A stretch of 64,000 bases of DNA, taken from the NCBI RefSeq assembly GCF_001307035.1, contig NZ_LKIU01000002.1:169088-233087 (forward strand), in the 5' to 3' direction. Of the stretch, positions 41,006 to 42,677 are shown one piece after another; positions within the stretch are counted from its first letter, which is position 1; each line of letters opens with the position of its first letter. The notes beneath the pieces were generated by a model. The model saw nothing but the letters and a program-made list of their open reading frames with translations. It made no database searches and was not told the origin of the DNA. Position numbers and translations under genes: made by a program. This stretch comes from Arthrobacter sp. Edens01. Its GTDB lineage: Bacteria; Actinomycetota; Actinomycetes; Actinomycetales; Micrococcaceae.

Positions 41006-41034
41006 TTGCCATGTGCACTCCAGAGGGTTATCGT
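41006..41034 (+). promoter_or_regulatory. Promoter of the aro leader
   Basis: TTGCCA (41006-41011) and TATCGT (41029-41034) are spaced 17 bp. Transcription would begin about at the ATG of the leader peptide, 7 bases downstream, so the leader is itself leaderless. Confidence 0.65.
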
Positions 41035-41041
41035 CGTGGGC

Positions 41042-41098
41042 ATGACTAACCGTTGGTATGCGTATTTTTCGTTGGCTCTGGAGGAGCCCGCGCGATAG
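41042..41098 (+). CDS. Leader peptide of the DAHP synthase attenuator
   Basis: An 18-codon frame reads MTNRWYAYFSLALEEPAR and stops with TAG at 41096. Codons 5-9 are Trp, Tyr, Ala, Tyr, Phe, exactly the end products of the pathway started by the enzyme encoded 120 bases downstream. Ribosome stalling at these codons would report low aromatic amino acid supply. The frame lies between a promoter and a set of alternative hairpins. Confidence 0.75.
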   Translation: MTNRWYAYFSLALEEPAR

Positions 41099-41191
41099 TA
41101 CGCTGACGCCAACCTTCAGAGCCAACAGGGCAGGGGATCATTCCCTTGCCCTTCGCCATATCCGGCGGGTTCTGAAGCAAAGTCCCGCCGG
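41072..41191 (+). promoter_or_regulatory. Attenuator hairpins upstream of DAHP synthase
   Basis: Four pairings are visible. Segment 1 (TTGGCTCTGGAGG, 41072-41084, inside the leader frame) pairs with segment 2 (CCTTCAGAGCCAA, 41113-41125). GGGCAGGGGA (41128) pairs with TCCCTTGCCC (41142). CCGGCGGG (41162) pairs with CCCGCCGG (41184). Segment 2 can alternatively pair with GGTTCTGAAG (41168-41177) and thereby break the last hairpin. This is the mutually exclusive scheme expected of a ribosome-mediated attenuator. Which hairpin terminates is not certain as no T-run follows. Confidence 0.65.
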
Positions 41192-41217
41192 TCCATTCTC
41201 ACAACGGATACGGGACC

Positions 41218-42464: not shown

Positions 42465-42677
42465 ATGGCAGACGAGAGCAATTTCTCGGACGTGCGGTTT
42501 CTGACGGTGTCAGAGGTCGCGGATGTCATGCGCGTGTCCAAGATGACCGTTTACCGGCTCGTGCATTCCGGCGAACTTCCGGCGGTCCGTTTTGGGCGGT
42601 CGTACCGCGTTCCGGAGTCTGCTGTGCAGCAGGTTCTGCGCAACGCCGTCATTGACAGGCAGTCTGGTACGGCCTAA
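42465..42677 (+). CDS. bldC: BldC-type developmental regulator
   Basis: The 70-aa MerR-like HTH protein has FLTVSEVADVMRVSKMTVYR and LVHSGELPAVRFGRSYRVPE, the exact pattern of BldC, which binds direct repeats cooperatively. A GAAGGAA site precedes the ATG. About 150 bases of upstream sequence include a small AGTGGAA/TTCCACT hairpin. Confidence 0.9.
   Translation: MADESNFSDVRFLTVSEVADVMRVSKMTVYRLVHSGELPAVRFGRSYRVPESAVQQVLRNAVIDRQSGTA

Follow-up and report, generated by a model that had tools for sequence, protein, structure and literature searches.

The type I DAHP synthase gene of Arthrobacter sp. Edens01 is preceded by a short leader that carries codons for Trp, Tyr and Phe and whose RNA can fold in mutually exclusive ways. 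We suggest that it is a ribosome-stalling leader of the AroR type, through which the supply of charged Trp, Tyr and Phe tRNAs would control DAHP synthase, most likely at the level of translation (a reading that we consider somewhat better than an even bet, with a probability of about 0.56). It builds on the leader itself, the conservation of its codons, the geometry of its promoter, a set of coevolving helices, and the distinct states adopted in folding by partial transcripts, that is, A:A' on the one hand and 2:3 versus 3:4 on the other (segments as in Table 1). In what follows, the window is the whole stretch of 64,000 nucleotides of contig NZ_LKIU01000002.1 that was analysed.

The leader and its gene

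The leader is flanked by a lactate dehydrogenase-like gene of the minus strand, which scores under the cut-off of that model, and by the type I DAHP synthase gene. The latter also matches TIGR00034 aroFGH (470.2 bits; cut-off 173.2), and the closest named match listed for its protein is from A. citreus DSM 20133 (88% identity). Positions 42465-42677 (+), 3' of the DAHP synthase gene, hold a small helix-turn-helix-like ORF that we take to resemble BldC, so that just one aro gene, and no aro operon, appears to be under the control of the leader.

A promoter, an 18-codon frame, the W-Y-A-Y-F codons and exclusive pairings had all been described in an earlier, sequence-only reading of this DNA, and all are present in the sequence. 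The promoter is one of three listed by the promoter scan in 19.9 kb, where 1.8 would be expected, and its geometry recurs among relatives. We compared a set of 90 loci (hereafter the family set), made up of the 84 upstream regions read in the family, five named Arthrobacter loci and, from the order, the single locus L186. Of the loci retrieved, L013, the second piece of a split match, and L014, from the same record as L002, were excluded. The triplet TTG begins 34-38 nt 5' of the leader ATG in 82 of these loci, and a -10 box of the form TANNNT begins 12-14 nt 5' of it in all 90, in a scan of seven positions per locus for which a chance match is expected at about 1% per locus. As judged from this spacing, the transcript should start at the leader ATG or within about 1 nt of it and, because the -10 box is so placed in every locus, the leader ORF is probably translated in a leaderless fashion.

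Table 1. Features of the leader and of the adjoining gene in the window
Feature	Position	Strand	Remarks
-35 hexamer TTGCCA	41006-41011	+	promoter scan
-10 hexamer TATCGT	41029-41034	+	17 nt after -35; ends 7 nt before leader ATG
Leader ORF MTNRWYAYFSLALEEPAR, 18 codons	41042-41098	+	ATG 41042; stop TAG 41096-41098
Segment A, over aromatic codons	41052-41066	+	pairs with A' in whole-leader MFE
Putative regulatory codons W-Y-A-Y-F (TGG TAT GCG TAT TTT)	41054-41068	+	near-invariant over 90 loci
Segment B (segment 1), GUUGGCUCUGGAGG	41071-41084	+	14 bp with B'; also 5' part of GGCUC...GAGCC hairpin
Segment A', end of stop codon and following stretch	41097-41113	+	pairs with A
Segment B' (segment 2)	41113-41126	+	pairs with B, or (41114-41123) with segment 3
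Hairpin H, between segments 2 and 3	41127-41152	+	coevolution, two-sided changes
Segment 3	41162-41177	+	41168-41177 pairs with B'; 41162-41169 with segment 4
Segment 4	41182-41191	+	41184-41191 pairs with segment 3; 41182-41187 with segment 5
Segment 5, CGGGAC over ribosome-binding site, directly 5' of start codon	41211-41216	+	pairs with segment 4
Type I DAHP synthase (aroF/G/H family), 365 aa	41218-42315	+	NF009395, 491.6 bits (cut-off 343)

Conservation of the leader and linkage to the type I gene

Within the genus, 12 of 29 genomes match the type I protein, and those same 12 have a match to a near-exact pattern of the leader, which is found in none of the 17 genomes in which the type I gene was not detected; controls with the reversed pattern gave no match at all. 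The leader thus accompanies the type I gene. The 17 genomes devoid of a type I match lie within G007-G028, and a type II DAHP synthase is present in all 29. At the level of the family, the type I protein was matched in 80 of 197 genomes, and a covariance model of the leader has exactly one match in each of those 80 and no match among the remaining 117; many of the 80 genomes are represented in the 32 lineages from which the model was built.

The aromatic core is equally well kept, with 82 of the 84 family upstream regions fitting a WYxYF regular expression and the two variants reading WQAYF and WYANF. A mechanical search for leaders finds one in 84 of 84 family loci, as compared with a mean of 5.8 in shuffles and with 12 on the opposite strand. 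These background counts indicate that short aromatic ORFs do arise randomly, which is what could be said for the view that the leader is a chance combination of a short aromatic frame with incidental hairpins. Such an origin is refuted, however, by the match in every family locus, by the linkage to the gene and by the covariation described below, and we assign it a negligible probability.

Conservation reaches down to the individual codons. Over the 90 loci of the family set, TGG is found in all 90, TAT in 89 at each of the two Tyr positions, GCG in 89 and TTT in 88, and every one of the 90 leaders has W, Y and F. In the five large ORFs of the window, by comparison, Tyr is encoded by TAT in 10 and by TAC in 30 of 40 cases, and Phe by TTT in 10 and by TTC in 48 of 58. 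Since TAT and TTT are fixed in the leader though they are minority codons in those ORFs, the leader codons are held by more than the amino acids that they encode. The simplest reason for the fixed synonymous sites would be the predicted pairing of A with A'; selection for codons that are read slowly may be another cause of the fixed TAT and TTT.

This pattern also bears on the possibility that a free aromatic amino acid causes the nascent peptide itself to arrest the ribosome, in the way known for TnaC and Trp. The leader peptide is indeed well conserved within the family set, where the 90 loci encode 31 distinct peptides, but the conservation is one of nucleotides, synonymous sites included. 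Moreover, 3' of the aromatic codons the peptide reads ALEEP or ALEGP in one lineage but APGGA elsewhere, with the RNA hairpin retained throughout, so that conservation follows the RNA and not the peptide. We have rejected peptide arrest on these grounds and regard it as very improbable. The hairpin in question is a small one, GGCUC...GAGCC (41074-41088 in the window), of which segment B also forms the 5' part, and which in mycobacteria takes the form GGCUCC GGGU GGAGCC; it differs by one base in length between lineages, and the encoded peptide therefore changes while the RNA is kept.

Coevolution of the RNA helices

In the family, the segments give rise to a chain of helices, A:A', B:B', B':3, 3:4 and 4:5, each of which competes with the next. 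The sequence-only reading had paired segment 2 (41113-41125) either with 41072-41084 or with 41168-41177. The first of these pairings is confirmed and really extends over 14 bp, while the alternative, as had been proposed, breaks the 41162-41169/41184-41191 hairpin. Helices A:A' and 4:5 as well as hairpin H (Table 1) had been absent from that reading. Comparison of the window and of 13 related loci with Rfam yielded no match at the gathering score; at a relaxed threshold there were three weak matches (E 0.27 to 9.7), all of them far under the gathering scores.

Coevolution was assessed by an alignment-free test over 32 family lineages, in which the own partner of each segment is compared with permuted partners. 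The resulting z values are -5.7 for B:B', -3.9 for B':3, -6.1 for 3:4, -5.7 for 4:5 and -11.4 for hairpin H. Because the window for segment 3 had first been chosen by its complementarity to B', fixed windows set blind to pairing were used as well, and these give -3.5 for B':3, -2.8 for 3:4 and -4.3 for 4:5. No coevolution is seen for the non-partner controls B':5 (+0.5), H:5 (0.0) and 3:5 (-0.2); among eleven non-partner pairs, nine fall between -0.5 and +3.3, with B':4 (-1.8) and B:4 (-2.1) being weakly low. With fixed windows the control B':5 is again at +0.5 and 3:5 is at -1.9 (p 0.03), a signal that is perhaps due to these windows overlapping segment 4. Coevolution of 4:5 is absent from six of the family lineages, a subset selected once the results were known (z +1.3). 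A core resembling a Shine-Dalgarno sequence (at least 2 nt) lies within the predicted 4:5 pairing in 29 of the 32 lineages.

Segment A hardly varies within the family (coevolution z -0.8), and shuffles of A' were for that reason used to evaluate A:A': the complementarity of A' to A beats them (fraction at or below 0.05) in 29 of 32 lineages. Further evidence comes from an alignment of the 5' half of the leader (32 lineages, 31 distinct rows), which has 91.6% standard pairs, as compared with 36-50% when slid by 1-3 columns. Two-sided changes occur in it at 8 of 32 pairs, against 5.2 in shuffles (13 of 500 shuffles reach the observed count), and in 52 cells, against 15.3 in shuffles. One pair of B:B' has undergone a double change from UA to CG in 11 of the 31 distinct rows, and hairpin H exhibits two-sided changes at six of its nine pairs. 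Taken together with the codon counts, the comparison among relatives that had been proposed for this DNA thus finds both codons and stems to be conserved, and the stems to covary, in support of the original notion that DAHP synthase is preceded by an aromatic leader peptide with exclusive RNA structures.

Outside the family, A:A' (z -3.5) and B:B' (-4.9) coevolve over 18 lineages. B':3 gives a hint only, short of significance (z -1.7, p 0.05, in those 14 of the 18 lineages that could accommodate the window), and 4:5 shows no coevolution with the windows used (z +1.1, 18 lineages). A value of -4.1 obtained for B':3 outside the family was discarded, the windows having also contained both arms of hairpin H. 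It is thus within the family, and there only, that the full helix relay is supported.

Folding states and proposed mechanism

The minimum free energy structure predicted for the whole leader of the window (-84.6 kcal/mol) combines A:A', B':3 and 4:5, which we refer to as set 1. In this set segment 4 would cover the ribosome-binding site and the enzyme would be off, whereas in set 2, consisting of B:B' and 3:4, segment 3 would take segment 4, the ribosome-binding site would be free and the enzyme on. A ribosome that starts at the leaderless ATG and stalls on a W, Y or F codon would cover A while B stays free; B:B' would then form, and 3:4 after it, ahead of transcription of the ribosome-binding site, with the result that DAHP synthase would be made. 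If there is no stall, A:A' would re-form because A' leaves the polymerase earlier than B', and set 1 would result. The Phe codon ends 6 nt 5' of the B core, and stems form ahead of ribosomes at such spacing in frameshift signals; whether a stalled ribosome also covers B would depend on the reach of the ribosome front. Stalling, the route to each set of helices, and an output at translation and not at transcription are the parts of this scheme that we infer.

The folding of partial transcripts yields well-defined states. In RNA cut just before B' and free of ribosomes, A:A' forms in all 32 lineages, with a mean of 11.9 pairs. In RNA cut before the ribosome-binding site, 3:4 has a mean of 6.5 pairs when B' is blocked (which excludes 2:3 by construction), whereas blocking of B leaves 3:4 with a mean of 0.9 and 2:3 with 7.9 pairs; 3:4 is higher with B' blocked than with B blocked in 30 of 32 lineages. 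This clear switch is seen in partial transcripts only, and the change at equilibrium is small. Without a ribosome, B:B' exceeds B':3 at equilibrium (0.62 versus 0.30, means of 32 lineages), and B':3 reaches at least 0.5 in just nine of the 32, the window included, so that in most lineages the 'off' default rests on folding order. The ribosome-binding stretch is unpaired to 0.42 with a ribosome stalled at W and to 0.37 with no ribosome, being higher in 23 of 32 lineages; that its accessibility changes so little follows from 3:4 and the alternative 4:5 being nearly equal in energy. Equilibrium folding is therefore not decisive between translation and transcription, and is in part at variance with the translational reading.

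The main rival is classical transcription attenuation, in which stalling at Tyr2 or Phe would hide B and allow 2:3 to act as an antiterminator, while in the absence of a stall B:B' and 3:4 would form, with the latter serving as a terminator, perhaps together with Rho. Folding with a strict (long) footprint, which extends 12 nt beyond the first A-site base and with which a Phe stall hides B, fits this scheme better as far as Tyr2 and Phe are concerned: it predicts 2:3 for the Phe stall (0.63) and B:B' for a ribosome at W (0.92), Y1 (0.94) or the stop codon (0.82). AroR of C. glutamicum, responsive to Phe and not to Tyr, is described as a case of transcription attenuation in the text available from PMC11802643, and leaderless leaders of S. 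lividans that have no U-run or clear terminator are called attenuators by the authors in the part seen of PMC8079986. Against attenuation stands the absence of a U-run after 3:4, the number of T per 8 nt 3' of segment 3 being 1-5 with a median of 2 over the 32 lineages; the terminator scan, likewise, finds no terminator-like site in the leader. In addition, the antiterminated state would free segment 4 for the coevolving helix 4:5 and thereby silence the read-through mRNA, and stalls at W and Tyr1 would have no effect, even though all 90 loci retain the first of these codons and 89 the second. The sequence-only reading was right about the exclusive structures, but an attenuator in the sense of an intrinsic terminator finds no support, there being no U-run and, in the family, a helix 4:5 that covers the ribosome-binding site.

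We prefer control of translation since there is no U-run, since 4:5 coevolves in the family, and since the translational scheme is the only one that makes use of the Trp codon. The average of the ribosome-free equilibrium and the withdrawn test of B':3 have, however, lowered our confidence in it and raised the standing of transcription attenuation, to which we accord a substantial, if minority, share of the probability.

Breadth beyond the family

Leaders related to the one described here are found 5' of most other actinobacterial type I genes examined. The covariance model is narrow and does not extend past close relatives (3 of 296 genomes of the phylum), and the claim of breadth consequently rests on the search for peptide and promoter. 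Of 25 named loci from other actinobacteria, 18 are matched by the mechanical search (1.5 in shuffles), one of them, L072, probably by chance. In a class-wide sample outside the family, from which five weak matches (E above 1e-4) were left out, the same search has a match in 35 of 55 loci; the 20 misses are 17 loci of family f23, the partly masked L223, and L228 and L234, whose leaders have fewer aromatic codons. Family f10, presumably that of Mycobacterium and Corynebacterium, has a leader in 19 of 20 loci hand-picked out of 170 matching genomes. A stricter search for frames, in which the start codon was selected for its -10 box and L030 and L208 were dropped as having no leaderless start, succeeds for 51 of 72 loci, with the -10 box at leaderless distance for 49 of the 51 frames; the same distance is found in 18 of 19 further leaders.

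The aromatic core varies with lineage (WYAYF, WYWRF, YWRF, YFWF, FYWF, RYPYF, RFYF), and W, Y and F occur together in 147 of 158 leaders, or in 137 of the 148 that are distinct when ten pairs identical over 150 nt, some of them from the same strain, are counted once. A few leaders have W outside the core. Three loci read MRNWRFYF..., MSVQRFYF... and MWRFYF..., each followed by a CCGGAGCC segment that resembles B' as found in other lineages; we presume them to be from Corynebacterium because, by eye, the beginnings of their DAHP synthases are similar to that of C. glutamicum as contained in a primer of PMC7356990. Their RFYF cores fit the Phe-Tyr-Phe of AroR, and from its sequence the presumed Corynebacterium element, (W)RFYF plus CCGGAGCC, may be homologous to the leader studied here.

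Several groups of loci depart from this picture or lie outside it. Family f23 (L187, L188, L190, L192, L194, L195, L197-L201, L204, L206-L208, L212 and L239) keeps a type I DAHP synthase apparently without a leader, with no mechanical match in its 17 loci, four of which were read by eye; L020, L045 (Nocardiopsis) and L064 likewise have no mechanical match. Genus g23 (L162, L163, L165, L170-L176 and L178) has a stretched leader, the gene starting 220-233 nt after the leader ATG, and several of its loci contain GGAGG in segment 3 and then a possible further small frame; in L162 this is a GTG frame ending at ATGA, and 4:5 is GGGGCC:GGCCCC. In alpha- and betaproteobacteria, too, type I DAHP synthase genes have aromatic-rich short ORFs upstream, for example MITVATSYFWYFSYDSSLAAGGSRSI and MSAKFYFYFFWHLKPLADREGES, at L051, L060, L061, L063, L089 (Bradyrhizobium), L065 (Mesorhizobium), L044, L085 and L090 (Burkholderiales), and L050, L053, L082 and L087. 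Mechanical matches at the non-actinobacterial loci number 25 of 49, as compared with 13 on the opposite strand and 9.4 in shuffles, and an Rfam scan of eight of the loci just listed gave no match; these ORFs are possibly separate attenuators of the same gene.

It is tempting to go one step further and to speculate that an ancient actinobacterial switch is at hand, in which a single leaderless leader would operate as an OR gate for Trp, Tyr and Phe, all three amino acids with which the shikimate pathway ends, and act on the ribosome-binding site through a five-helix relay whose first helix involves the sensing codons, with AroR representing a shortened branch; we offer this wider view tentatively, and hold it to be slightly less than an even proposition. 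DAHP synthase opens the route to all aromatic amino acids and to many actinobacterial products. If the view is correct, one RNA that senses three amino acids would set the supply of DAHP synthase in most type I actinobacterial lineages, and C. glutamicum AroR would belong to a single branch within a family of long standing. The leader would also constitute a natural relay in which the codons that sense serve as pairing partners as well, and synonymous substitutions should therefore not be silent; such a relay would be useful for strain engineering and is directly testable.

Comparison with known systems

The kind of leader is already known from AroR, located 5' of aroF in C. glutamicum. In the accessible text of PMC11802643 it is described as containing Phe-Tyr-Phe, with transcription going up under limitation for Phe and not for Tyr. 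The passages seen of PMC11802643, PMC7356990 and PMC6892785 attribute AroR to Neshat 2014, a putative aroF leader is mentioned in an excerpt of PMC4046766, and according to PMC7356990, likewise seen in part, aroR was replaced during the building of a C. glutamicum strain. The sequence-only reading, which knew of no described Trp/Tyr/Phe-sensing leader for DAHP synthase in this group, thus has to be amended, the AroR/aroF kind being on record (partial texts of PMC11802643, PMC4046766 and PMC7356990). The two leaders share clustered aromatic codons directly 5' of an actinobacterial DAHP synthase gene. As far as the description of AroR allows comparison, they differ in that AroR has Phe-Tyr-Phe and reportedly responds to Phe at the transcript level, whereas W, Y and F are all present here; moreover, the codons of the leader studied here are fixed and paired with A', and its helix over the ribosome-binding site coevolves in the family.

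Likeness to other systems is more limited. The leaderless polycysteine short ORFs of mycobacteria (Canestrari 2020, as cited in the portion seen of PMC9031893) are similar in being leaderless, in having amino acid-sensing codons and in controlling translation of the next gene, but they belong to cysteine genes and are likened here by description; translation attenuation of M. smegmatis cysteine genes is mentioned in an excerpt of PMC13236596. The uORFC-13-1 motif of Acholeplasma aroF (partial text of PMC8632094) comprises a candidate leader ORF with Phe codons 5' of DAHP synthase and, again by description, differs in being found only in Acholeplasma and environmental sequences, in adjoining an intrinsic terminator and in having an ordinary ribosome-binding site for the leader. 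The trp operon attenuators of Corynebacterium and Streptomyces likewise combine a leader peptide with competing hairpins, but have Trp codons only and GC-rich terminators followed by U-runs (PMC1262725, in the part available). That survey, within the same part, gives structures for Trp, Cys and Leu genes together with ileS T-boxes, but no structure for any other pathway of amino acid biosynthesis; for S. lividans, eight leaders (Leu, Trp, Ala, Ile, Met, Thr) are listed in the text seen of PMC8079986.

Among the open-literature matches listed, no account of such a leader was found in Actinobacteria outside Corynebacterium, which is weak evidence of absence. The breadth of the leader and its codons for three amino acids are new, and its action at the ribosome-binding site probably is as well. 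In ermC-type translational attenuators the stall is caused by a macrolide and not, as proposed here, by missing charged tRNA. They resemble the leader upstream of DAHP synthase in that a stall in the leader ORF frees a hidden Shine-Dalgarno sequence, a principle that is set out in the accessible part of PMC13236596.
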